Of a stretch of 64,000 nucleotides of DNA, positions 7,450 to 48,293 are shown piece by piece; the stretch's first letter is position 1; each line of letters opens with the position of its first letter. Source of the DNA: an uncultured Anaerolineae bacterium (GTDB taxonomy: Bacteria > Chloroflexota > Anaerolineae > Anaerolineales > Villigracilaceae). The stretch spans positions 1-64,000 of the forward strand of contig CAIJPN010000213.1 in NCBI GenBank assembly GCA_903822545.1. Reading direction: 5' to 3'. The position numbers and the translations under genes were made by a program. The notes beneath the pieces were generated by a model. That model was given only the letters and a program-made list of their open reading frames with translations, was not told the DNA's origin and did not search any database.

Positions 7450-9462
7450 ATGCTCACACCTGTCGAGAAAATCCTGTTTGCCATCGCGGTCGTTGTTTCC
7501 CTGTATTACACCTGGAAAGGCGTCCAGCGTATCCTGAAAAACATCGCCAGCGGGCAGGGCAAACCCGATTGGAACGTAGTCGCCAAAAAAGCGGGCGGCG
7601 CGATCGTCAAATTCCTGACGTTCCAGCCCGTTTTTCGTTTCCGGCTTATCCCCAGCTTCCTGCACGGGCTGATCGGCTGGGGCTTCATCGGATTCCTGCT
7701 CATCAACCTTGGCGACCTGATCTACGCCTACTTTGATTGGCGCCTGCTCGACAACACCGGCATTTTTGGGGATGTGTACCGGCTGCTGGCTGATATTTTG
7801 AACATAGCGATTTTGGTGGGAATCGTGGCGATGGCAGTTCGCCGCTTTATCCTCCGCCCTGCCACTTTGACCACGCGCCAATCGACTTTGCTCGACCCGT
7901 TAGCGCGCACCGGCATCAATCGTGATTCCGCTATCGTGGCCGGGTTCATCTTCATCCACAATACCAGCCGCCTGCTGGGAGAATCCTTCTTCCTCGCGCA
8001 GCACGGCGAAACTGACAGCTGGCAGCCATTCATTTCAACGGTATCCAAGCTCTGGGTGGGGGTCGATCCGATGGTGTTAACTGTTGGAGAGCACCTGGCC
8101 TTCTGGCTGTCGGTAGGAGCCGTCGTGGCGTTCCTGCCCTATTTCCCCTACTCCAAACACCTGCACCTGTTTTTCGCCCCGATCAACTTTGCGCTCAAAC
8201 CCGAAAGAAAATCGATCGGTCAGCTCAGCTACATCAACCTGGATGATGAAAAAATCGAACAGTTTGGCGCGGCCAAAGTCAGCGATCTGGGCTACGAGCA
8301 GATTGTGGATGCCTATTCGTGCATCATGTGTTTCCGCTGCCAGGAAGTCTGCCCGGCCTACAACACCGGCAAAATTCTGTCTCCTGCGGCGCTGGAAATC
8401 AACAAACGCTACAACTTCAACCACGGCGGCGGGACGGATAAACCGCTGACGGAACTGATCCCCGAAGAAGCGGTCTGGGCCTGCACATCTTGCGGCGCGT
8501 GCGTGGATATTTGCCCGGTGGGCAACGAACCGATGCGCGACATTCTCGAAATCCGCCGCAACCTGGCGATGATGGAAAGCAGCTTCCCGAAGCAGCTTGA
8601 GACGGCTTTCAAGGGCATGGAACGCAACATGAACCCATGGAACGTCAACCAGGGCGACCGGATGAAGTGGGCCGCTGGCATGAAAGTCCCGACGATTGAG
8701 CAAAACCCCGAGCCGGATATTCTCTGGTGGGTGGGCTGCGCCCCGGCGACCGATGCCCGCGCCCAGAAAACTGCCCAGGCTTTTGCCAAAATCCTGAACG
8801 CGGCTGGCGTCAGCTATGCGGTACTCGGCAAAAGCGAACAATGCACCGGTGACTCAGCCCGCCGCGCCGGGCGCGAGGATATTTTCTTTGGCCTGGCGAT
8901 GGGCAATGTGGAGATTTTGAACGAAGTAGGTGCCGGGTCTCCCGGCCCGGATGGCAAGCAAATGCGCATCGTCACCACCTGCCCGCACTGCCTGCACACC
9001 ATCAAGAACGAGTACCCGGCCTTTGGCGGCAACTACGAGGTGATCCATCACACGCAGTTCATCAACGAGTTGGTGGGGGCGGGGAAGGTGCAGTTATCAA
9101 TGAGCAGTGACCAGTTATCGGTAACGTTCCACGACCCGTGCTATCTCGGACGGCATAACGGGATCACTGGAGAACCGCGTAACGTTTTGCAGAGCACCGG
9201 GGCTGTAACCGTCGAAATGCCACGCACTGGAGCCAAATCGTTCTGCTGCGGCGCAGGCGGTGCGCAAATGTGGAAGGAAGAAGAAGCGGGCACGCAAAAG
9301 GTCAATGTAGCCCGTTTCGTCGAAGCCAAAGCCACCGGCGCGCAGATGGTGGCCGTCGGCTGCCCGTTCTGCCTGACGATGATGGTGGACGCATCCAAAG
9401 CCGATAATGACTCGCTGCAAGTCAAGGATGTGGCCGAAATTGTGGCCGAGCGAATCAAATAA
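7450..9462 (+). CDS. Membrane-bound HdrD-like (Fe-S)-binding oxidoreductase
   Basis: 670 aa, start set by GATGGAGGCCCCATG. The N-terminal 230 residues contain about five membrane helices like a NarI/HdrE cytochrome b unit. Two [4Fe-4S] ferredoxin motifs follow: CIMCFRCQEVCP from C291 and CTSCGACVDICP from C345. The C-terminal part has two CCG-type domains; the second ends in DPCYLGRHNG and FCCGAGG (C599/C600), the first in a degenerate GC...C form. This is the layout of HmeD/DsrMK-like proteins that pass electrons between menaquinone and a cytoplasmic thiol or Fe-S partner. The exact partner is unknown. The segment at 9091-9120 (VQLSMSSDQLSV) derives from a short repeat. An SUMF-type gene follows after 18 bases. 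Confidence 0.88.
   Translation: MLTPVEKILFAIAVVVSLYYTWKGVQRILKNIASGQGKPDWNVVAKKAGGAIVKFLTFQPVFRFRLIPSFLHGLIGWGFIGFLLINLGDLIYAYFDWRLLDNTGIFGDVYRLLADILNIAILVGIVAMAVRRFILRPATLTTRQSTLLDPLARTGINRDSAIVAGFIFIHNTSRLLGESFFLAQHGETDSWQPFISTVSKLWVGVDPMVLTVGEHLAFWLSVGAVVAFLPYFPYSKHLHLFFAPINFALKPERKSIGQLSYINLDDEKIEQFGAAKVSDLGYEQIVDAYSCIMCFRCQEVCPAYNTGKILSPAALEINKRYNFNHGGGTDKPLTELIPEEAVWACTSCGACVDICPVGNEPMRDILEIRRNLAMMESSFPKQLETAFKGMERNMNPWNVNQGDRMKWAAGMKVPTIEQNPEPDILWWVGCAPATDARAQKTAQAFAKILNAAGVSYAVLGKSEQCTGDSARRAGREDIFFGLAMGNVEILNEVGAGSPGPDGKQMRIVTTCPHCLHTIKNEYPAFGGNYEVIHHTQFINELVGAGKVQLSMSSDQLSVTFHDPCYLGRHNGITGEPRNVLQSTGAVTVEMPRTGAKSFCCGAGGAQMWKEEEAGTQKVNVARFVEAKATGAQMVAVGCPFCLTMMVDASKADNDSLQVKDVAEIVAERIK
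9091..9120 (+). repeat. In-frame CAGTTATCA/TGATCAGT-type repeat inside the HdrD-like gene
   Basis: Tandem-like units CAGTTATCAATGAGCAGTGA and CCAGTTATCG encode residues 548-557, just before the conserved FHDPCY motif. Related units occur at 34741, 50727, 51101 and 53835. It adds a short polar loop without breaking the frame. Confidence 0.55.
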
Positions 9463-9480
9463 AAGGGTTCTGTAATCATC

Positions 9481-10377
9481 ATGAAAAAATCATCTCGTTT
9501 CGTTTCCCCTAAAATCCTGGCGCTGGTGATGGGTATTCTCTTAATGTTGGGTATTGGCTTCGCCACAGGTGGATTGCGAACCGGTTTCAAGCAAGCGATC
9601 CTGACTGCAACCTTTTTACGCGCCCAGTGGAACTCTTATGGTTTTGGAGTGACACCGGTAAAGCCGCTGCAAACCCGCATATCCGAAGTAGATGGTATGC
9701 CGCTGGTATACGTCCCGGCAGGCGAATTTGAGATGGGCACTGATGATATTGGCTTCCCGCCCAGCCAACCGTTGCATACCGTTAAACTGAACGCATTTTG
9801 GATTGATCAATATGAAGTGTCAAACGCCCAGTTTGCGCTATGCGTGGAAGCAAAAAAATGCCGCATGCCATCCAAACAGGTTTACAAACAATACTTTGAT
9901 CCAGCTTATGCTGATTATCCAGTGGTATATGTAGCCTGGAAGGATGCCCTGGCATATTGCACCTGGGCCGGGCGCACCCTGCCCACCGAGGCGCAATGGG
10001 AAAAGGCCGCGCGTGGCACAGATGGCCGCCATTATCCCTGGGGAAATGAGCTGCCAGATACCAGCCGGGCCAATTTTGACGATATTCTTGGTAAGACTGT
10101 GCCAGTAAATCGCTACCCGTTGGGGGCCAGTCCGTATGGGGCTTTTAACATGGCCGGCAACGTGCGCGAATGGGTGGCGGATTGGTACGGAGAAAATTAT
10201 TATTCCCAATCACCAACCGAAAATCCAACCGGCCCCGAACTGGGCCACTATCGTTCACTGCGTGGAGGCTCCTACGGCGATGCACTGCGTCAAATGGAAG
10301 TGTATACCCGTTTCAAGCACCAGCCGACCTTGCCAGGCATCAATCGCGGGTTTCGTTGCGCTCAGCCAGCGCCATAA
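9481..10377 (+). CDS. Membrane-anchored formylglycine-generating-enzyme (SUMF1) fold protein
   Basis: 298 aa. One N-terminal membrane helix (residues 12-30) probably serves as anchor or uncleaved signal, and the rest faces outward. From residue 72 the FGE-sulfatase domain is clear: PLVYVPAGEFEMGTDD, FWIDQYEVSNAQF, TWAGRTLPTEAQWEKAARG, NMAGNVREWVADW, SLRGGSYGD and a terminal RGFRCA. The paired cysteines that do catalysis in true formylglycine-generating enzymes are not visible after the RGGS motif, so it is probably not a sulfatase activator. Such domains also serve in binding or other oxidations. It lies 18 bases after the HdrD-like gene and ends at a strong terminator. Confidence 0.85.
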   Translation: MKKSSRFVSPKILALVMGILLMLGIGFATGGLRTGFKQAILTATFLRAQWNSYGFGVTPVKPLQTRISEVDGMPLVYVPAGEFEMGTDDIGFPPSQPLHTVKLNAFWIDQYEVSNAQFALCVEAKKCRMPSKQVYKQYFDPAYADYPVVYVAWKDALAYCTWAGRTLPTEAQWEKAARGTDGRHYPWGNELPDTSRANFDDILGKTVPVNRYPLGASPYGAFNMAGNVREWVADWYGENYYSQSPTENPTGPELGHYRSLRGGSYGDALRQMEVYTRFKHQPTLPGINRGFRCAQPAP

Positions 10378-10393
10378 GCCGCTCCAAACCCAG

Positions 10394-10440
10394 GCAAACA
10401 AAAAGCTGCCAGGATACCAATCTGGCAGCTTTTTGTTTGC
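10394..10440. terminator. Bidirectional rho-independent terminator
   Basis: A perfect 19-bp stem (arms 10394-10412 and 10422-10440, AGCTGCCAG against CTGGCAGCT with A- and T-rich outer parts) with a 9-base loop. It lies between two convergent genes and has A/T tracts on both sides, so it can end transcription from either direction. Confidence 0.9.
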
Positions 10441-10450
10441 TGTAATTCTG

Positions 10451-11827
10451 TCACTCTTCCAATGACTGCGAATCACCGGCGTACTGGAGCAGCGCGGCTC
10501 GACGCGTATAAACCATGATGGCGCAAGCCCGGGCAATTGGCCCAATGACCGCCTGGGGAAATTCCATCAAGTAATCGTGGGGTGAGAGTTTGCCTTCGAA
10601 CATCAGCTTCGAGCGGGCACTATGATATTCAAGTCGATCAGGAGGCAGGTTGCAGTATACGAACAGCGTCAGCGGGGAATTTCTCATATCAAAAGAAATT
10701 TCACCGGTGCGTCCTGATTGTAGCAGCTGGTAGATGAGCGAATCCTGATCGACCCAGGGCTTTTTTTCATATTCCGGCAGGTAATATTCCAGGCGTTTGA
10801 TGTTGGTGCCATCGCGCGGAATGTCGCCCATGAACAGCGAGAGCGGCGCATCACCGCCAGTGGCTAGCGCCAGCGCCTCCAGGATGGAATGATTGAGTAT
10901 CTTGATCTTCAGGTATTCGCGAGCAATTTCGATGTTTTTTCGAGCCATCTGCGTAAAGTATTGATACTCTTCGTTGGGCGGGGTGCCATGGTACTGGTGA
11001 AAAATAGCCTCGGGTTCCAGCCGGTTAAAAAAACCTGCCATGCGCTGCAAGGCCAGGCGATACATGCCGATGCTGTAAACATCAGGCAGCCGCAGGGCCG
11101 CATTGGTTTCAGGCAGCAGCTTCCAGGTATTATCGAGGAAGCGTGCCGGATCACTTTCGGCAAAGTTTTCGATGTCTTTATTGGCAAAGTTGACCGCCAT
11201 TTTGATGGCGCGCACAATTTCATCTTCCGTCAAGGCAAAATCATACTTTTGGGCTACCCGGCGCAAAACATCTTCCAAGGCATCGAAGTGTGAACGTCCA
11301 TTTTGGTCTGTCCCGCGAAACGGGATGGTGGCCTCGACACACAGGGTCATCAGCATCAGGTCTTTTTCCGGCAGAATATCGCCCAACTGCTTGTTCATCA
11401 CCAGGGCGCTGAGGAACTCGTTGAGCGCTTCAAGGGATGACAATTTTTGCCCCGGTTTCATAGTGAAAATGTCCATCGTAAGGGCAGCGATGCGGTCATC
11501 GTTGGGGATGGTCTCAGCGATAAAAAAGTCCCCATAACGCTGTTCAACATAGGATGAAATGATTCGCCAGACCTCGGGGGCAAAACCCATATCCACCTGG
11601 TAATAGACAATGTCATGATACAGCGCCGCCAGGCTGCGAATGGGATCACTGGGATCGACAAAGTTGAAAACGTGGGCCAGTGTATGAAAGTGCCGTGTCT
11701 GAACGGTCATGGCGCGATGAATGGTAACGGCCAGGTCTTCGAGTTTTTCCAACGAAACATCGACGCCAAGGCTTTTAAAAGCGTGGCTAAATATGGCAAT
11801 TAGTTTTTGAACGTTTCCAACTTGCAT
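10451..11827 (-). CDS. HD-domain-like protein of unknown function
   Basis: 458 aa, no signal or membrane segment. Residues 40-85 contain HFHTLAHVFNF followed by LAALYHDIVY. This matches the spaced H...HD pattern of predicted metal-dependent HD phosphohydrolases (the YHNLxH...FHDxVY group). The remaining 350 residues are mostly helical by appearance and I do not recognise them. The family would be expected to cleave a phosphoester, possibly of a nucleotide, but the substrate is unknown. It is a single gene between a terminator and the epimerase-like gene on the same strand, 76 bases apart. Confidence 0.7.
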   Translation of the reverse strand: MQVGNVQKLIAIFSHAFKSLGVDVSLEKLEDLAVTIHRAMTVQTRHFHTLAHVFNFVDPSDPIRSLAALYHDIVYYQVDMGFAPEVWRIISSYVEQRYGDFFIAETIPNDDRIAALTMDIFTMKPGQKLSSLEALNEFLSALVMNKQLGDILPEKDLMLMTLCVEATIPFRGTDQNGRSHFDALEDVLRRVAQKYDFALTEDEIVRAIKMAVNFANKDIENFAESDPARFLDNTWKLLPETNAALRLPDVYSIGMYRLALQRMAGFFNRLEPEAIFHQYHGTPPNEEYQYFTQMARKNIEIAREYLKIKILNHSILEALALATGGDAPLSLFMGDIPRDGTNIKRLEYYLPEYEKKPWVDQDSLIYQLLQSGRTGEISFDMRNSPLTLFVYCNLPPDRLEYHSARSKLMFEGKLSPHDYLMEFPQAVIGPIARACAIMVYTRRAALLQYAGDSQSLEE

Positions 11828-40931: not shown

Positions 40932-41825
40932 TCAGGCGGTCAAGAAGTAAACCCCGGCCAGGAAAAGCAGGGCGGTGAGTGTGCTGGATGCCCAGACGAT
41001 GTGCGCCAGCGGGCGCAGGTCGGCGCGGCGGAAGGCCCACAGCCCCGCCGCCAGCCCGCTGACGAAAAACCCGGCGCTCAGGATGGGCAGCAAAATCAAC
41101 TGCACCGACGGCACCGGCGGGATGGGCTGCGCGGCGGCGTCGAAGCCGATGGTGACTTGCGGCAGGCTGGGAACGAGCACGCTGACCCACACCAGCAGGC
41201 CGACGTTCAGGAAGATGCCCGCCAGCCAGAAAAAGCGCACCGCCGGGATGTCCCAGGCCTGGGTAAGGATGAATGTCGGGTATTGCGATTGCGGCGCGGC
41301 CTGGTCGAGGCTGCCCATTTCGATGGCGTGCTGGAAGGCGCGCAGGAATTCGGCCTGGTCGGCAGGCGAGATGGCAAAAACGCGCCGGGCGGTGGCTACG
41401 AACAGCATGGTGCTGGTTTCCGACGCCATAAATTCCACCTCGCCGATGTCGGGGTGATGCACCACGCCCATCATCCCGCCGGGCAGCGAGAACAGCGGCA
41501 GCGATACCGGCGCCAGCAGCCCCTGGGTTGGCCGCACCCACTCCACGTTGCTGATCGGGATTTCCTCCACGCGCAGGCCCCAACTCAGGCGCAGCGTCTC
41601 GCGCCCAAGCTGGTAATCGGAGCGCAGCAGCGCATATAGCCGGTATCCGAGCAGCGGCAGCGGCACGACCGAGACAATCAACAGCAGCACAAAAAAGGCG
41701 AAGCGCAAATCCAGCCGCGCCCCGGCCAGGCTGAAACCCGAAAGCGCCGCCAGCCCGGCCAGCGCCACAAGGCTGGCAAGGTGGATGAAAAATCCACGTT
41801 GGCGTGCGGGCGGGAAGGATTGCAT
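40932..41825 (-). CDS. Membrane protein with bacterial PH-like domain
   Basis: 297 aa. Two N-terminal membrane helices (around 13-60), a central beta-rich domain (YQLGRETLRLSWGLRVEEIP, then LFVATARRVFAISPADQAEF) like bacterial PH (bPH2/DUF304) domains, and three C-terminal helices (200-295). Similar proteins are found beside cell-wall or lipid genes, but no activity is established. Its ATG shares one base with the stop of the DegT gene, and the DUF92 gene follows by one base, so the three are translated together. Confidence 0.65.
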   Translation of the reverse strand: MQSFPPARQRGFFIHLASLVALAGLAALSGFSLAGARLDLRFAFFVLLLIVSVVPLPLLGYRLYALLRSDYQLGRETLRLSWGLRVEEIPISNVEWVRPTQGLLAPVSLPLFSLPGGMMGVVHHPDIGEVEFMASETSTMLFVATARRVFAISPADQAEFLRAFQHAIEMGSLDQAAPQSQYPTFILTQAWDIPAVRFFWLAGIFLNVGLLVWVSVLVPSLPQVTIGFDAAAQPIPPVPSVQLILLPILSAGFFVSGLAAGLWAFRRADLRPLAHIVWASSTLTALLFLAGVYFLTA

Positions 41826-43027
41826 CAGCGCAGTTCCTCGCGCAGTGCCGCGCAGACGTAATCGACCTGCTCTTCGATCATCACGCCGCTGAACGGCACC
41901 GCCACACCGCGCCGCCCCAGGTCTTCGGTCACGGGAAAATCGCCCTCGCGGTAGCCAAATCGCTCAACCATGTACGGTTGCAGGTGAATCGGCAGGAAAT
42001 ACGGCCGGATGGGCACGCCGCGCGCTTCCAGGCGCTTTGCCAGGGCCGCGCGATCCACATTTTGGGGCAGGCGGATCACGTAGACGAACCAACTCATGCG
42101 GGTGGTTTCGGGGGAAATATGCGGAATCTCAATCTGGGGGATTTCGCCCAGCCGCTCGGAGTACCACCCGGCCACTTTCTCCCGTTTAAGGAGCATATCA
42201 TCCAGCCTGTGCAGCTGCGCCAGCCCCAGCGCCGCCGACATTTCATCCAGCCGGTAGTTGTAGCCCAGGTACGTGTGCGAGAGCCACGTATCGCCGGGAG
42301 CGCGGCCCTGGTTGCGCAGCGCGCGCATCAGCCCCGCCGCCTCATCGTCATCGGTGATGATGAGGCCGCCCTCGCCGGTGGTCATCTGCTTATTGGGGTA
42401 AAACGCAAAAACGCCATAATCGCCATAGCGCCCGGCCTGCCTGCCCTGGTAAGTCGCGCCCAGCGCCTCGCACGAGTCCTCAATGACTTTCAGCCCGTGC
42501 TCCTGCGCGATGGCATTGATTTTGTCCAACTTCGCGGGTTGTCCGAAGACATCAACCGGTAAAACGGCTTTCAAGCGGGAATGCCAGTCGATATTCGACA
42601 CTGGATATTCGGAATGCGAATTTCGAATATCGACTTTTCGTGGAAGGTATTTCTCAACATTCCGCGCTGCATCAGCCGCCTGTTCCGGGTCGATGTTGCC
42701 AGTCTTGGGGTCAACATCCACAAAAACCGGGATGGCGTTCTCGAACAGCAGCGCATTGGTTGATGCGACAAACGAAAACGGCGTGGTAATCACCAGGTCG
42801 CCCGCCCCAATCCCGGCGGCGCGGATGCACAGGTGCAGCCCCGCCGTGCCAGAATTGACAGCGATGGCATGTTTCGCGCCGGTATAGTCGCAAAAAGCCA
42901 TCTCGAACTCAACCACCTTTGGGCCGAGGCTCAAGATGGGCGTATTGATAACATCGATAACCGCCTGCCGGTCGGCATCGGTCAGGTCGGGGGAGGACAT
43001 GGGGATTTTCATAAAATTTGGGGTCAT
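41825..43027 (-). CDS. DegT/DnrJ/EryC1/StrS-family aminotransferase
   Basis: 400 aa. Sugar aminotransferase features: GAKHAIAVNSGTAGLHLCIRAAG, VITTPFSFVASTNALLFENA, EDSCEALGATYQGRQAG and the PLP lysine in FAFYPNKQMTTGEGG. It should transfer an amino group to a keto-sugar nucleotide for surface glycans or act as a regulator of that class. Residues 131-147 (VDIRNSHSEYPVSNIDWH) are an extra loop not usual before the KAVLPVDVFGQ strand and are encoded by a repeat of ATATTCGA type. No other sugar-nucleotide genes are adjacent. Confidence 0.9.
   Translation of the reverse strand: MTPNFMKIPMSSPDLTDADRQAVIDVINTPILSLGPKVVEFEMAFCDYTGAKHAIAVNSGTAGLHLCIRAAGIGAGDLVITTPFSFVASTNALLFENAIPVFVDVDPKTGNIDPEQAADAARNVEKYLPRKVDIRNSHSEYPVSNIDWHSRLKAVLPVDVFGQPAKLDKINAIAQEHGLKVIEDSCEALGATYQGRQAGRYGDYGVFAFYPNKQMTTGEGGLIITDDDEAAGLMRALRNQGRAPGDTWLSHTYLGYNYRLDEMSAALGLAQLHRLDDMLLKREKVAGWYSERLGEIPQIEIPHISPETTRMSWFVYVIRLPQNVDRAALAKRLEARGVPIRPYFLPIHLQPYMVERFGYREGDFPVTEDLGRRGVAVPFSGVMIEEQVDYVCAALREELR
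42587..42636 (-). repeat. ATATTCGA-type repeat inserted in the DegT gene
   Basis: Units GTCGATATTCGAC, GGATATTCGG and GAATTTCGAATATCGAC form a partly palindromic block, in frame, inside a conserved enzyme. A shorter relative is at 49785-49812 in the formate dehydrogenase gene. Confidence 0.6.
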
Positions 43028-43092: not shown

Positions 43093-44322
43093 TCATGCTT
43101 TGAGATGGTTCAAGATTTCTGAAATCGCCACCAACTCCACATCCCCCCCGCTGCGCCGTTTCACCTCAACCATTCCGTTTTGGAGTGCCCGCTCTCCCAC
43201 CGTAATGCGCACCGGGCAGCCGATCAGGTCGGCGTCGTTGAATTTGACACCGGCGCGCTCATCGCGGTTGTCGAAGAGCACTTCCAGCCCGGATTCTGTT
43301 ATCTGCTGGTAGAGTTTTTCGGCGGCGGAGAGTGTATCCAGCGTTTTGCCGGGGACGTGCATCAGGTACACGTCAAAAGGCGCGGCGGAGGCCGGCAGAG
43401 TCAGGCCCTTGTCGTCGTGGAATTGTTCGACCAGGGCGGGCAGCAGTGCATCGAAATGGATTTGGCTGCCAGTGGAAAGGCGGATGGCGTTGCCCCCGTC
43501 GAGTTTATAGCCACACTCGGGGCATGGATCAGTCACTGCTGCCAGCGTCAGGTCAGCCACCAGATCAGGGGTAAAATCACGGGGCGCGTTGACGTTTTTC
43601 AGGTGGAATCCATGTTCATTTGCCCCGGCGACCAGGTTTGGGGATTGCAGAATCAGATCATCCACAAGCACAAGCGTATCATGCACGCCGATGGGGGATG
43701 CGTAGCCGGGCACTGCGCCATGTGCGATGATCTCGGCCTCGCTGGCCAGCCTGAAATCGCCGATGTGTTTTTTTAGTTTGGCTTCACTCAGGGTCATATC
43801 GCCGCGAATAACGACAAAAACAAACTGGCTGTCGCTCAGGCGGGTGAACATCAGCGCCTTAGCAGTTTTTTCCTGTGGAATGCCCATAAAGGCGGCCAGC
43901 GCAGCAATCGTGGGGCATTCGGGGGTCACAACCTTTTCAGCGGGGAGGGTCGCTTCGCTGCTGCAGGGGGTCTTGCGGGTGCGGGCCAACTCCCGGCTGG
44001 AGACGTATCCGCAGCCCACACAGGTTACCAGCTCGGTCTCGCCGGTCTCTTGCGGCAGGAAGATTTCTTGCGATTCGCGGGAATAGAACGGCTCCAGGTC
44101 GAGCCGGGTGAAGTAACTGCGCGCGGTATCGTAGGATGCGCCATGGGTACCAGCAAGCGCCTCGTAAGCGCGGCGGGCGCGCTGGATGGCCCGGCGGCCC
44201 AGTTCCAGCAATTCCCCGCTGTGAGAGATGTATCCGGCGCGCACAAAAAGCGCTGCGCCGGGCGTCCGCGCATTGGCGGGATTTTCACGGTGGGTTTGGA
44301 TGTTCAGTTCAGTATATTTCAT
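43093..44322 (-). CDS. Prolyl-tRNA-synthetase-like protein lacking the aminoacylation core
   Basis: 409 aa against about 570 for bacterial ProRS. The first 75 residues resemble the ProRS start (KENPA-like THRENPANART, RAGYISHSG), but the part holding motif 2 and the proline pocket is gone. Residues 110-130 keep CVGCGYVSS. The INS editing domain of YbaK type is complete in outline (EKTAKALMF, VVIRGDMTLSEAKLKKHIG, GAVPGYASPIGVHD, NLVAGANEHGFHL). CPECG follows, motif 3 (normally GIGVSR) reads IHFDALLPA, and an anticodon-binding domain closes the protein (APFDVYLM...VLFDNRDERAGVKFNDADLIG). It probably cannot charge tRNA; a trans-editing or regulatory role is inferred. Four bases follow bactofilin. 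Confidence 0.82.
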   Translation of the reverse strand: MKYTELNIQTHRENPANARTPGAALFVRAGYISHSGELLELGRRAIQRARRAYEALAGTHGASYDTARSYFTRLDLEPFYSRESQEIFLPQETGETELVTCVGCGYVSSRELARTRKTPCSSEATLPAEKVVTPECPTIAALAAFMGIPQEKTAKALMFTRLSDSQFVFVVIRGDMTLSEAKLKKHIGDFRLASEAEIIAHGAVPGYASPIGVHDTLVLVDDLILQSPNLVAGANEHGFHLKNVNAPRDFTPDLVADLTLAAVTDPCPECGYKLDGGNAIRLSTGSQIHFDALLPALVEQFHDDKGLTLPASAAPFDVYLMHVPGKTLDTLSAAEKLYQQITESGLEVLFDNRDERAGVKFNDADLIGCPVRITVGERALQNGMVEVKRRSGGDVELVAISEILNHLKA

Positions 44323-44325
44323 GGC

Positions 44326-44769
44326 TCAAGAGAGTGGCTGTTCGGGCCCGCTGGACGGCTCGGTTTCAGAGCCGAGTTCGAGATCAACGTGGTCTTCCAT
44401 GCGGATTTGCCCGCGCAGGAAGGCGCCTTCTTCGGTGACGAAGGCCACCGTGGTGACATCGCCCCACACCCGCCCGGAGGCGCGGATTTCGAGCTTTTGG
44501 GTGGTGATGTTGCCGCGCACCGCCCCGGCGACGATGACCGTGCTGGCGCGGATGTTTTCGCAGGTGACGCGCCCGCTTTCGCCGATGACGAGCATCCCTT
44601 TGAGCGCGATTTGGCCCTCAAAGTTTCCCTCGATGCGCACGCCGCCCGCGCCGCCGATTTTGCCTTCCCAGATCAGGCCGGGGCCGAGCACCGATGTGAT
44701 TCTTTCCACCGCCTGGACGACCGGCGGCGGGGTGGTGGTTTGTTGTGGGGGAGAGTTGCGTTTGAACAT
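44326..44769 (-). CDS. Bactofilin-family polymer-forming protein
   Basis: 147 aa. A Pro/Thr-rich N-terminal tail is followed by the bactofilin beta-helix (ITSVLGPGLIWEGKIGGAGG, then VRIEGNFEGQIALKGMLVIG, ASTVIVAGAVRGNITTQKLE and RASGRVWGDV). Repeating short strands with Gly turns are the family's hallmark. Bactofilins polymerise without nucleotide into filaments at the membrane and affect cell shape or surface structures. An acidic tail of 20 residues ends the protein. First gene before the ProRS-like gene. Confidence 0.9.
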   Translation of the reverse strand: MFKRNSPPQQTTTPPPVVQAVERITSVLGPGLIWEGKIGGAGGVRIEGNFEGQIALKGMLVIGESGRVTCENIRASTVIVAGAVRGNITTQKLEIRASGRVWGDVTTVAFVTEEGAFLRGQIRMEDHVDLELGSETEPSSGPEQPLS

Positions 44770-44939: not shown

Positions 44940-45728
44940 TTACTGCTCTTTTCGCGGGTCAGGCGCCGCCATGATATTGTAGCCACTATCCACATAATGC
45001 ACTTCACCGGTGACATGCGCGGCCCAGTCAGAGCACAGGTAAACTGCCGCATTGCCGCAATCTTCCTGGGTGACGTTTTCGCGCATGGGAGCCATATCGG
45101 CGAAGTTCTTATACATATCGCGGAAGCCGCTCACGCCCATCGCCGCCAGCGTGCGGATCGGCCCGGCTGAAATGGCATTGACGCGGATACCCTGCGGGCC
45201 AAAATCCGCCGCCAGGTAACGGGTGGAAGCCTCCAGCGCGGCCTTGGCCACGCCCATCATATTGTAATTGGGGGCCACCTTCATCGAGCCGTAATACGTC
45301 AGCGTCAGCAGCGCGCCGCCTTTGCGCATCATCGGCTGGAAAGCGCGCGCCAGCCCCACAAACGAATACACGCTGATATCCATCGCCAGGTGGAACCCGG
45401 CCCGGCTGGTGTTGTAAAAGTGGCCCTGCAGCTCATCCTTGTTGGCAAAACCAATCGAATGAACGAGAATATCAATCTCGCCAAAGCGCGCCTTCGCCTT
45501 TTCGGCCACCGCCGCAATCTGCTCATCAGACGAGACATCGCACTCTTCCACAAAATCCGCATTCACCTGCGCGGCCAGCGGCTTCACGCGCCGTTCCAGC
45601 GCCTCACCCGCGTAACTGATACCAATCGTCGCGCCCTCGCGGTGGAAGGCCTGCGTAATGCCCCAGGCAATCGAACGTTCATTTGCAAGCCCAAAAACCA
45701 GGGCGGTTTTACCAGATAAAAGACCCAT
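44940..45728 (-). CDS. fabI: Enoyl-[acyl-carrier-protein] reductase (NADH)
   Basis: 262 aa from ATG 45728, set by GGAGG a few bases before it. The FabI-type variant of the SDR fold is clear: [38 protein letters not shown], the catalytic [12 protein letters not shown] (Y-x6-K) and [15 protein letters not shown]. It performs the last reduction in each round of fatty-acid elongation. It is 25 bases from the glycosylase gene on the same strand. Confidence 0.95.
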
Positions 45729-45753
45729 TTTTCCTCCATTGTGTAGCACAGGA

Positions 45754-46353
45754 TTACTCCTGCGTTACAAGAAATCGCCACGGAATCGACTTCCACGGCT
45801 CCGGCACAGAATATAACCCCACACGGGGCGTTTGGGTCACGGTAGAGTCAGAAATCACAAGTCCCGGCTCGATCCACAGACCAGAATCGATTTGGGTCAG
45901 ATCGATATTATTTTGGGAAATATTGATTTGGAAGGCCGCTGCCAGTTTTCCCGGCCCATTGGTCAGATTCTTCTCTGGAACATTTCCCCGGCGGATGCGG
46001 GCCGCCCTGTGGCCTGTTTCCAGGGCTACCGAGCGGATCAACACCGCCGCTGGGAACCCTTCGGCCTCTGTAACAGCATTCAACATCCAGTGCATTCCAT
46101 ACGTAAAATAGACATACGCCCGTCCCGGCGGCCCATACATCACCTGCGTCCGGGCGGTCCTCCCGGCTTTAGCATGGCAGCCCAAATCCGTCTCACCGAT
46201 GTAGGCTTCGGCTTCGTTGATGAACCCGCTGATTTGCTCGCCATCGGGCAAAATCCGCACCAGGCGCGCACCCAGCAGTTCGCGCGCCACATCCAGCGTG
46301 GGGCGGGCGTAAAAAGCAGCGGGGAGGGGCAGTCCGTTTAGCGGGGGCAACAT
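45754..46353 (-). CDS. mpg: 3-methyladenine DNA glycosylase (AAG/Mpg family)
   Basis: 199 aa from ATG 46353 (family start near [21 protein letters not shown]); an in-frame ATG at 46431 adds an atypical leader. Motifs: [18 protein letters not shown] with the catalytic Glu, [20 protein letters not shown] (the intercalating Tyr region), [11 protein letters not shown] and [10 protein letters not shown]. It removes alkylated purines from DNA in base-excision repair. It ends next to fabI and is divergent from the NuoEF gene. Confidence 0.92.
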
Positions 46354-46384
46354 GCAGGGCAAGTATACCCGTTCCCTTTCCTGA

Positions 46385-46390
46385 TATAAT
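46385..46390 (+). promoter_or_regulatory. Possible extended -10 element upstream of the NuoEF gene
   Basis: TGATATAAT (TG-N-TATAAT) on the plus strand, about 130 bases before the start at 46521. No clear -35. Offered as a weak candidate for the formate dehydrogenase operon promoter. Confidence 0.3.
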
Positions 46391-46520
46391 TTTGTGAAAA
46401 TACGCACAAAGCTAAGGTGACATCCATCCATAAAAATAAGGTATGAATGAAACTTGGAATGTGACTTAAAAACGATGAAAATGATACCGTGCTTATGCCG
46501 ATTTCCTCCCCCGAGGCCCC

Positions 46521-48293
46521 ATGACCAACAAAAAAATCATCTACAAACCAATTGATCCCGAAATCGCGGAACTGGCCCATCATCACGGCGGGACGCGCGA
46601 GGCGACGCTGGAAGTGCTCAAAGACTTGGGCGCGCAGAACAAGCTGAACCCGGCTACCGTTACCGAAGCGGCCCGTGCCCTGCACATCCCGGCTAATCAG
46701 GCTTACGGCATGGCGACTTTTTACTCCATGCTTTCGCTGGAGGAACGCAAAAAAGTGCTGCGCGTCTGCGATGGGCCGGTTTGCTGGCTCAAACGCGCAT
46801 CCGAAGTGCGCGCAGCGGTGGAAAAAACCGCCTGTTCTCACGATGCAGGTGTCACTATCGAGCGAACTTCGTGCCTGGGGCTGTGTGACCGTGCCCCGGC
46901 AGTGCTGGTGGAGGACGAACAGGCCGGGCCGGTTCATCCCGACGAGGCCTGGAAGTTGTGCGAAGGCTGGCGCGGCGTCCCGACGGATTACTCCGCCGAG
47001 CGCAAGGGCGAATTGCGGGTCATGACGGCGCTCATCGGCAAAATCAACCCCGATTCCATCGATTCGGCCATTGTCCACGGCGTCTATGACGGGTTGAAAA
47101 AAGCCCTCCAGCGTGAACCCGTCGCCGTTTTAGCAGAAGTCGAAGCCTCGGGCCTGCAAGGGCGCGGCGGAGCCGGGTTCCCGGTTGGGCGCAAGTGGCG
47201 TTTTGTCGCATCCGAAAAGCGCACCCCACGCTACATCGTCGTCAACGCCGATGAATCTGAGCCGCTGATTTTCAAAGACCGGGTGCTGATTGACACCAAT
47301 CCGCACCAACTTTTAGAGGGCATCACCATCGGCGGGTACGCTGCCGGGGCCAGCGAAGCCTGGATTTACATCCGCGGCGAGTACGAGTACCAGGCCCGGC
47401 GGCTGGAAAAAGCCATCGAGCAGGCCGAATCCAAGGGTTTCCTGGGCGAGGATATCCTGGGGAGCGGTTTTTCGTTCAAAATCCACGTGCATCGCGGCGC
47501 GGGCGCCTACATCTGCGGCGAAGAAACCGCGCTGATCGAGTCGCTCGAAGGCAAACGCGGCGAGCCGCGCCTGCGGCCGCCCTACCCGCCCCAATCCGGT
47601 TTCCGCGGCCAGCCGACTGCGGTCAACAACGTGGAAAGTTTCTGCGCCGTGCCGCACATCATCAAAAATGGCGCGGAGTGGTGGCGCAACCTGACCAACG
47701 ACCCAACCCCCGGCACGAAAGTCTACATGGTGCTGGGGCAGGTGCGCAACCCAGGGCTGTTCGAGGCTCCCTTTGGCCTGACCCTGCGCCAGATTATCGA
47801 AGAATTCGGCGGAGGGATGCTGCCCGGCTCATCCTTCAATTTTGCGCTGTGCGGCGGCGCGGCCGGGACGATTGCGCCCCCCGCCCTGATGGACAGCCAC
47901 ATCGACTACAGTTCCGGGCCGCTCAAAGGCGTTACCCGGGATATCGCGGCGATGGAGAAACGCTGGACCCAGGTTATTTCGATGGGCGCAGGCTCTTTCC
48001 TGATCTGTGACCAAAATACCAGCCCCGTAGCCTTTTTACGCGAACTACTGGCTTTTTTCGCCGCTGAAAGCTGCGGCAAATGCACCCCCTGCCGCGTCGG
48101 CACCTGGCGCTCACTCGAAATCCTGAACCGTCTCGCCGCTGGCGAAGGCCGTAAAGGCGACGTGGACGAACTGCGCGCCCTGGCCGATAACATGCAGGCC
48201 GCGTCATTCTGCGGGCTGGGGCAGTCGGTCGCCATCCCGATGAACTCGGCGCTAACGCATTTCGGCGCGGAGTTTGCGCGGGCCGAAAAGTAG
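46521..48293 (+). CDS. NuoE-NuoF fusion, NADH-binding subunit of formate dehydrogenase
   Basis: 590 aa. Residues 20-150 form a NuoE-type thioredoxin-like [2Fe-2S] domain with CDGPVC and SCLGLC (all four cysteines). From 175 on is NuoF: GRGGAGFPVGRKWRF (FMN/NADH loop), NADESEPLIFKDR, GAGAYICGEETALIESLEG with RGEPRLRPPYPP, and the [4Fe-4S] motif CGKCTPCRVGTW from C518. Fused E/F subunits occur in soluble NAD-reducing hydrogenases and in NAD-linked formate dehydrogenases such as FdsB. The selenoprotein FdhA gene follows, so NAD+ is the likely acceptor for formate electrons, or NADH the donor for CO2 reduction. Confidence 0.92.
   Translation: MTNKKIIYKPIDPEIAELAHHHGGTREATLEVLKDLGAQNKLNPATVTEAARALHIPANQAYGMATFYSMLSLEERKKVLRVCDGPVCWLKRASEVRAAVEKTACSHDAGVTIERTSCLGLCDRAPAVLVEDEQAGPVHPDEAWKLCEGWRGVPTDYSAERKGELRVMTALIGKINPDSIDSAIVHGVYDGLKKALQREPVAVLAEVEASGLQGRGGAGFPVGRKWRFVASEKRTPRYIVVNADESEPLIFKDRVLIDTNPHQLLEGITIGGYAAGASEAWIYIRGEYEYQARRLEKAIEQAESKGFLGEDILGSGFSFKIHVHRGAGAYICGEETALIESLEGKRGEPRLRPPYPPQSGFRGQPTAVNNVESFCAVPHIIKNGAEWWRNLTNDPTPGTKVYMVLGQVRNPGLFEAPFGLTLRQIIEEFGGGMLPGSSFNFALCGGAAGTIAPPALMDSHIDYSSGPLKGVTRDIAAMEKRWTQVISMGAGSFLICDQNTSPVAFLRELLAFFAAESCGKCTPCRVGTWRSLEILNRLAAGEGRKGDVDELRALADNMQAASFCGLGQSVAIPMNSALTHFGAEFARAEK

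Follow-up and report, generated by a model that had tools for sequence, protein, structure and literature searches.

The bacterial-type prolyl-tRNA synthetase (ProRS family II, ProRS-II) encoded at positions 43093 to 44322 of the window, which is the whole 64,000-nucleotide contig stretch of an uncultured Anaerolineae bacterium that we analyzed, is devoid of a catalytic core and retains an INS domain for editing and an anticodon-binding domain (ABD). We call this protein (P0001) ProRS-ed. It is likely a dedicated freestanding tRNA-Pro proofreader, in which the ABD would select tRNA-Pro and the INS domain would hydrolyze Ala-tRNA-Pro made by a family-I ProRS (ProRS-I). Probably, it now only clears the errors of this second, different proline-loading enzyme. 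With less assurance, the data lean toward a broader scenario across the Anaerolineae (Chloroflexota, judged from named relatives), in which a second, archaeal-like ProRS has repeatedly demoted the native ProRS to a predicted two-domain proofreader via surviving intermediates, ending as a minimal INS and ABD editor of Ala-tRNA-Pro where ProXp-ala is missing.

Domain content of ProRS-ed

Pfam detects only two domains in ProRS-ed, tRNA_edit (residues 133-246, E 1.6e-23) and HGTP_anticodon (residues 318-408, E 6.2e-19). The class II core domain is absent from the protein by this search, with tRNA-synt_2b missing there and present in the intact ProRS-II of locus L041. The INS fold with its conserved lysine is present (PF04073, 83.5 bits, cut-off 25.5), and the whole-protein NCBIfam models for ProRS-II stay below their thresholds (PRK09194, 246.6 bits, cut-off 558; TIGR00409, 166.2 bits, cut-off 306.7). 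Of the features that characterize family II, ProRS-ed has the INS domain and the ABD, and it lacks the class II catalytic motifs (TxE, motif 2 Arg and motif 3 Arg). Its features are as follows.

43093..44322, minus strand: ProRS-ed open reading frame, ATG start, 409 aa
44134..44322, minus strand: N-terminal ProRS remnant, aa 1-63, with what is presumably the motif-1 helix (alignment to intact ProRS-II)
44133..44134, minus strand: junction after aa 63, where 110 aa of core (TxE loop, motif 2) are absent relative to L078 (alignment)
44011..44022, minus strand: first CxxC (C101, C104), both invariant in 21 aligned orthologues
43585..43926, minus strand: INS (YbaK-type) editing domain, aa 133-246 (PF04073, E 1.6e-23)
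43858..43860, minus strand: INS lysine K155 (alignment to intact ProRS-II), which we take to be the counterpart of E. coli ProRS K279
43693..43707, minus strand: G206-P210 (alignment to intact ProRS-II), which we take to be the GxxxP loop
43603..43605, minus strand: INS histidine H240 (alignment to intact ProRS-II)
43513..43524, minus strand: second CxxC (C267 invariant, C270 in at least 90% of aligned orthologues)
43423..43461, minus strand: motif-3 helix remnant IHFDALLPALVEQ, aa 288-300, with A292 at the Arg position (alignments)
43099..43371, minus strand: ABD, aa 318-408 (PF03129, E 6.2e-19)

The extent of the loss was read against L078, where the syntenic locus carries an intact ProRS-II. 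Residues 68-177 of L078 (110 aa, comprising the end of motif 1, the TxE loop and motif 2) are deleted in ProRS-ed, as are residues 417-445 (29 aa) preceding the motif-3 helix; two further gaps are small (9 and 7). The motif-3 arginine in 'VSRLL' of E. faecalis ProRS aligns with A292 in 'FDALL' of ProRS-ed. The first-pass annotation had recognized the N-terminal edge, INS domain and C-terminal ABD of a ProRS, which Pfam, the L078 alignment and the structural match to 2j3l bear out; motif 2, which it reported as absent, lies within the 110-aa deletion, and the IHFDALLPA that it read in place of motif 3 has A292 where the arginine should stand. C101 and C104 likely represent one half of a putative metal site.

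Structure modeling, proposed earlier as a check, points the same way. The AlphaFold2 model of ProRS-ed is confident (pLDDT 92.9, pTM 0.82) and matches a whole ProRS, with E. faecalis 2j3l as top Foldseek match (E 3e-39) and 406 of 409 residues aligned to 2j3l_A (Z 29.9, rmsd 4.2). By sequence alone, the N-terminal remnant matches 2j3l weakly (1.0 bit).

Stripped orthologues and the accompanying ProRS-I

Of 61 genomes, counting that of ProRS-ed, 23 encode a stripped orthologue (48-60% identity), and the recurrence of the same shape indicates that ProRS-ed is more than a product of chance. A 24th genome (G025) holds a stripped-type fragment at a contig end. Frames are open in 22 of the 23 genomes; the G009 orthologue (L035/L141) is frameshifted into two frames of 312 and 89 aa, which is either a pseudogene or an assembly error. 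The G010 orthologue is longer (451 aa) and has a motif-2 remnant, and no aligned stripped row has residues in the TxE and motif-2 columns except L033, where a remnant without the motif is found. The named stripped records (L043-L077), nearly all metagenome bins, are labelled Anaerolineae, Anaerolineales, Anaerolineaceae, Anaerolinea or Chloroflexi; as the named loci L043-L122 are the best 80 matches listed, stripped forms number at least those listed and possibly extend beyond Chloroflexota.

The stripped clade is under purifying selection, with dN/dS of 0.10-0.19 in all seven within-genus pairs (quotients of dN and dS; dS saturated in three). Mean pairwise identity is highest in the INS domain (67%), followed by the ABD (60%) and the other segments (44-49%). 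T153, K155, G206, A208, S209, H240, C101, C104 and C267 are among the positions invariant across 21 aligned stripped orthologues, of which at least 90% have P210 and C270. About 0.8 kb downstream of the stripped gene in G007, a short ORF (L021:3533-3832) resembles a damaged ABD end (GVKFNSADLSGYPVRVTV) and is likely the relic of a second copy; a short match similar to it lies at G024:C82:28076-28186.

All 23 stripped genomes contain a family-I ProRS match, above cut-off in 22 and as a fragment only in G005. The own genome of ProRS-ed (5.5 Mb, 237 contigs, listed as 100% complete) holds no ProRS-II above cut-off in a profile search. The search for the real proS that had been suggested did turn up a complete charging enzyme, of family I and not another proS of the same type. 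This Thermus/archaeal-like ProRS of 483 aa, encoded on a different contig from ProRS-ed, scores 569.5 bits with TIGR00408 (cut-off 437), has the Pfam core and ABD and no tRNA_edit, and is alignable end to end with T. thermophilus ProRS 1h4q; judged by eye, its motif-2 and motif-3 regions seem kept. The situation that the first-pass annotation named as contrary to its reading, a genome with no other ProRS and a protein with recognizable motifs 2 and 3, is the reverse of what we find: the family-I ProRS exists, the motif-2 columns are empty and the motif-3 Arg is an Ala.

Four tRNA-Pro genes (UGG, CGG and two GGG) were found among the 30 tRNA loci scanned of 41 matches in the own genome, and the three that were read (UGG, CGG, GGG) start with C and end with G-A (C1:G72, A73). 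One tRNA-Pro (GGG) gene is followed, after about 0.55 kb, by a tRNA-SeC (L211:1932-2026). Besides ProRS-ed, the genome encodes four lone INS proteins, one ProXp-ala-like (5vxb, E 1.2e-20), one YbaK-like (2dxa, E 1.6e-22), one 2cx5-like (E 1.1e-37; 2cx5 is named ProXp-x in PMC11295145, in excerpt) and one a weak YbaK_EbsC match. Given the ProXp-ala-like protein and the three further lone INS proteins, clearance of Ala-tRNA-Pro may be redundant here, or the substrate of ProRS-ed may be a different one.

Core decay of ProRS-II in relation to ProRS-I

The genes surrounding ProRS-ed recur among its relatives.

44326..44769, minus strand: bactofilin gene, directly upstream of ProRS-ed (PF04519, E 7.9e-23)
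44940..46431, minus strand: FabI-like reductase and methylpurine-DNA glycosylase, upstream of bactofilin, in an order frequent among relatives
41825..43027, minus strand: DegT-type aminotransferase, downstream of ProRS-ed (PF01041), a frequent neighbor

At stripped genes, the recurrent order is glycosylase, FabI, bactofilin, ProRS-type gene, DegT and PH-domain gene, with DegT absent or out of reach at many loci. An upstream bactofilin and a downstream DegT also flank ProRS-II with intact motifs at L078, L079, L080 and L112 (labelled Anaerolineaceae twice, Chloroflexi and Pelolinea), in genomes that also carry ProRS-I. Decayed ProRS-II is found in the same context at L123 (G022; bactofilin and PH-domain neighbors) and L037 (G023; DegT neighbor). 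One syntenic locus thus holds intact (four relatives), decayed (two) and stripped forms, which argues for reduction in place.

At 57 of 61 stripped loci, among which some genomes are represented by several records, the bactofilin gene lies upstream, usually no more than 0.4 kb away and at most ~1.2 kb (L021); of the four loci without it, L035, L063 and L064 stop close to the end of a contig and L055 has 1.9 kb of upstream sequence. It is also upstream at 7 of the 45 loci L078-L122, all intact ProRS-II (L078, L079, L080, L090, L091, L097 and L112), which belong to the best 80 named matches listed. The adjacency therefore looks ancestral. The pairing with bactofilin that had been pointed out is real as adjacency and is not specific to ProRS-ed, as the gene also precedes some intact proS; a functional link between the two was rejected on this ground. 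Elsewhere in the window, a 590-aa ORF at 46521-48293 (plus strand) reads, by eye from its translation, like NuoE fused to NuoF.

Relatives hold, besides the stripped form, full-length intact ProRS-II or proteins of ~500-600 aa with corroded motifs and with INS and ABD kept. We scored retention at the positions invariant in 12 reference ProRS-II (101 core, 36 INS and 21 ABD) taken from genomes without ProRS-I above cut-off, which score 1.00 by construction. One reference genome, G059, may hold a ProRS-I fragment, as a 170-aa frame in it matches the C-terminal end of ProRS-I over a short length (2.1e-12). ProRS-ed keeps 18% of the core, 83% of the INS and 90% of the ABD positions. For 33 decayed full-size ProRS-II from ProRS-I genomes, the corresponding ranges are 24-78%, 83-97% and 81-100%. 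The INS lysine is aligned in 81 of 81 loci (67/67 with and 14/14 without ProRS-I), the INS histidine is kept in 65/67 and 14/14, and GxxxP in 62/67 and 14/14, respectively. The motif-2 Arg is retained in 11 and the motif-3 Arg in 25 of the 67 ProRS-I-bearing sequences, which were picked partly for weak scores and do not constitute a random sample.

Loss of the ProRS-II core goes with possession of ProRS-I in the class. The census behind this statement covers 298 genomes of the class, drawn evenly from a larger group and classed by best E-value exponent (ProRS-I, <=1e-100; ProRS-II intact, <=1e-140; weak, 1e-31 to 1e-139; low, >=1e-30). Weak includes genes cut by contig ends, and low comprises stripped, absent and some strongly decayed ProRS-II (e.g., G111, ProRS-ed match at 2.6e-32). 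The counts of intact/weak/low ProRS-II are the following.

All 298 genomes: 80/11/16 without ProRS-I; 65/61/62 with ProRS-I; 1/1/1 with a ProRS-I fragment
At least 90% complete (216 genomes): 55/4/5 without; 57/47/46 with; 1/0/1 with a fragment
At least 95% complete (138 genomes): 37/0/0 without; 39/32/29 with; 1/0/0 with a fragment

The Fisher test of ProRS-I against ProRS-II state on this census ignores shared ancestry. In the most complete set (at least 95%), a hand tally by family codes distributes the 37 ProRS-I-less genomes over 10 families and the 32 weak ones over 15, with one family in both. Exceptions with a decayed ProRS-II and no ProRS-I found are G053 (96% complete, 540 contigs) and G308 (91% complete). 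In the census, a weak ProRS-II score without ProRS-I is seen in 11 genomes, of which G269, G308, G310 and G319 are at least 90% complete; the sequence was read for G308, and the rest are assigned by scores. In five genomes of at least 90% completeness, both enzymes stay below threshold, so that some of the exceptions can be put down to gaps in the assemblies.

Several loci show other states of the two enzymes. The reverse case is found at L166 and L167 (G164, G292), where ProRS-II keeps 84-85% of the core and 53% of the INS invariants, with altered GxxxP and histidine regions and a family-I ProRS also present; it seems to be a synthetase that has lost editing. Family-I and family-II genes lie less than ~2 kb apart on the same contig at L130 (G006), L132 (G003), L133 (G018) and G015:C108. 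The full-length ProRS-II of L133, with 78% of the core kept and the TxE loop and motif 2 changed, looks like the start of decay. At L130, the ProRS-II gene next to the family-I gene is broken into two frames and its motifs are otherwise intact; this reflects either early decay or an assembly error. On G019:C62, two family-I ProRS matches of equal score and size lie on opposite strands (9151-10569 and 146302-147720), in a bin listed with 7% contamination.

In a quick INS and ABD tree of 101 rows, 27 decayed rows group with 28 stripped ones (clade support 96); the long decayed row L148 falls inside the stripped group, and four intact/lost changes are needed. Once the four long or odd rows L129, L148, L166 and L167 are taken out, another quick tree requires nine changes and recovers a clade of the stripped rows (97.9); it does not reject the hypothesis that all core loss goes back to one origin (p-AU 0.295). 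The 101-row set leaves out identical copies, fragments cut by contig ends, most of the stripped loci L045-L077 and some of the named intact loci. The stripped forms are a single clade on the second tree, and the number of independent ProRS-II decays may lie anywhere from one upward, with four or nine changes in the two trees.

Proposed mechanism, known systems and rival explanations

The living forms suggest a stepwise origin in place, which would lead from two complete ProRSs through decay of the ProRS-II core to its deletion. In the resulting state, the separate family-I ProRS, which is present and has no INS domain, would charge tRNA-Pro and mischarge some of it. The retained ABD would bind the anticodon loop via G35 and G36, as its conservation and work on E. 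coli ProRS suggest. The CCA end would then enter the INS site, and hydrolysis of the wrong aminoacyl ester, most likely Ala-tRNA-Pro, would be assisted there by K155, H240 and the GxxxP loop. The INS domain of E. coli ProRS has no tRNA-Pro recognition of its own, and its editing needs the ABD reading G35/G36, not the acceptor stem; the K279A variant is editing-defective (PMC3973320, in excerpt). The lack of tRNA specificity in the INS domain would explain why the ABD had to stay, and the dependence of editing on the ABD, not on the acceptor stem, why both were kept together and how ProRS-ed could edit tRNA-Pro from another type of ProRS. The earlier proposal that the protein clears mischarged tRNA-Pro by itself holds insofar as an editing protein with its own anticodon-recognition domain is the best-supported reading; the deacylation, its substrate and the independence from other proteins are what we infer.

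A similar arrangement exists in crenarchaea. ThrRS-ed, reportedly described by Korencic et al. in 2004, is a Ser-tRNA(Thr) hydrolase (NCBIfam PRK14938); it lacks a catalytic domain and works beside a separate charging enzyme. ProRS-ed likewise combines an editing domain and an ABD without a core and stands beside a separate charging enzyme, an analogy of architecture only (ThrRS-ed is drawn as editing domain plus ABD in PMC11295145, in excerpt). In contrast to ProRS-ed, ThrRS-ed is archaeal, derives from another synthetase and has an editing fold unrelated to INS; moreover, the charging enzyme beside ProRS-ed belongs to a different ProRS family, and the reduction that led to ProRS-ed is seen in stages at one locus. 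The ThrRS-ed model PRK14938 matches ProRS-ed with 20.3 bits (cut-off 362) and in the ABD part only, and descent from ThrRS is not seen. ProRS-ed would work like ThrRS-ed, but it descends from ProRS and is not a ThrRS-ed member.

Other than the ProRS domain itself, members of the INS superfamily are single-domain proteins (PMC11295145, in excerpt), in line with the earlier remark that ProXp factors are usually a lone INS domain. ProXp-ala reads the acceptor stem (PMC3973320, in excerpt). ProRS-ed shares the INS fold with ProXp-ala, YbaK, ProXp-x, ProXp-ST1 and ProXp-ST2, and is predicted to have probably the same role as ProXp-ala in clearing Ala-tRNA-Pro where the charging ProRS lacks INS. Unlike these proteins, it is not single-domain, with a ProRS ABD, a core remnant and descent from a full synthetase. 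To bacterial-type ProRS (family II, TIGR00409; E. faecalis 2J3L) it is homologous end to end with INS and ABD kept, but it falls under the family cut-offs and is without motif 2, TxE loop and motif-3 Arg. ProRSx of Streptomyces is, like ProRS-ed, a diverged copy of bacterial ProRS (a duplicate, PMC9437257, in excerpt); it is, however, a working synthetase charging a tRNA with an Ala anticodon, whereas ProRS-ed has lost the synthetase function. Among titles and abstract starts of the open-licence PubMed Central literature searched, no freestanding ProRS-derived INS and ABD protein was found.

If the broader scenario across the class is correct, ProRS-ed would parallel archaeal ThrRS-ed independently and would be, in bacteria, the first INS trans-editor with more than one domain. 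The living intermediates at one locus would show how a tRNA synthetase can become a freestanding proofreader, with core loss accompanying possession of a second synthetase. In 2013, it was left open how the ABD, on recognizing the anticodon, communicates with an editing site some 70 Å away (PMC3973320, in excerpt), and a 2024 review still calls the molecular basis poorly understood (PMC11295145, in excerpt). ProRS-ed would offer a natural minimal construct for this question, and since its 409 residues comprise only the two modules on a reduced scaffold, their communication would be directly testable.

The distribution of ProXp-ala bears on the substrate. Counting matches at E 1e-20 or better in the 61 genomes, a ProXp-ala-like protein is present in 5 of the 23 stripped genomes, the own one included, and not found in the other 18. 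Ten of the 61 genomes have ProRS-I and no ProRS-II match; four of these have a ProXp-ala-like match and six have none. The 25 genomes whose ProRS-II is intact or decayed gave no such match (in G041, 47 residues match at 3e-10), and neither did three set-aside genomes (G025, G031, G034). This pattern hints that ProXp-ala and ProRS-ed may stand in for each other, although not strictly; a strict replacement was rejected, as both are present in five of the 23 genomes, including that of the window. As six genomes have ProRS-I and neither ProRS-II nor ProXp-ala, the function may be dispensable in some lineages, or genes were missed.

Where a ProXp-ala-like gene coexists with ProRS-ed (5/23), Ala editing would be redundant, and ProRS-ed might then act on another amino acid mischarged to tRNA-Pro, or on another tRNA. 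We consider this rather unlikely, given the 18 of 23 stripped genomes without such a match at E 1e-20 or better, the 90% retention of reference-invariant ABD positions and the four tRNA-Pro genes (UGG, CGG, two GGG) among 30 loci scanned of 41 matches. In particular, action on another tRNA, an option raised in the first-pass annotation, is disfavored by the retention of 90% of the 21 ABD invariants and by the four tRNA-Pro genes with ordinary anticodons. It is also doubtful that ProRS-ed serves as a tRNA-Pro-binding accessory of ProRS-I, with a structural or channelling INS domain that performs no hydrolysis, e.g., as a subunit recruiting YbaK-type deacylases. YbaK is thought to act via a complex with ProRS (PMC3973320, in excerpt), YbaK-like proteins are encoded in the own genome, and ProRS-ed has retained the ABD and part of the core scaffold. 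However, the INS domain is the most conserved segment, and a scaffold would need none of the lysine (67/67), histidine (65/67) and GxxxP (62/67) retained in ProRS-I-bearing loci; the location of ProRS-I and ProRS-ed on different contigs gives no operon support either.

A decaying pseudogene without function is very improbable. Core decay is graded over lineages, G009 is frameshifted and the G007 copy is followed ~0.8 kb downstream by the relic of a damaged ABD, but dN/dS of 0.10-0.19, the selectively conserved INS and ABD, a confident fold and frames that are open in all but one of the 23 stripped genomes speak against it, and this explanation was rejected on dN/dS and site conservation. The superposition of 406 of 409 residues on a whole ProRS could suggest that ProRS-ed is still a synthetase with motifs unrecognizable by sequence. 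The chance of this is negligible, and it was rejected on the L078 alignment and the empty TxE and motif-2 columns, which in the stripped rows are occupied only in L033; in addition, the motif-3 Arg is replaced in ProRS-ed and a complete family-I ProRS is present.
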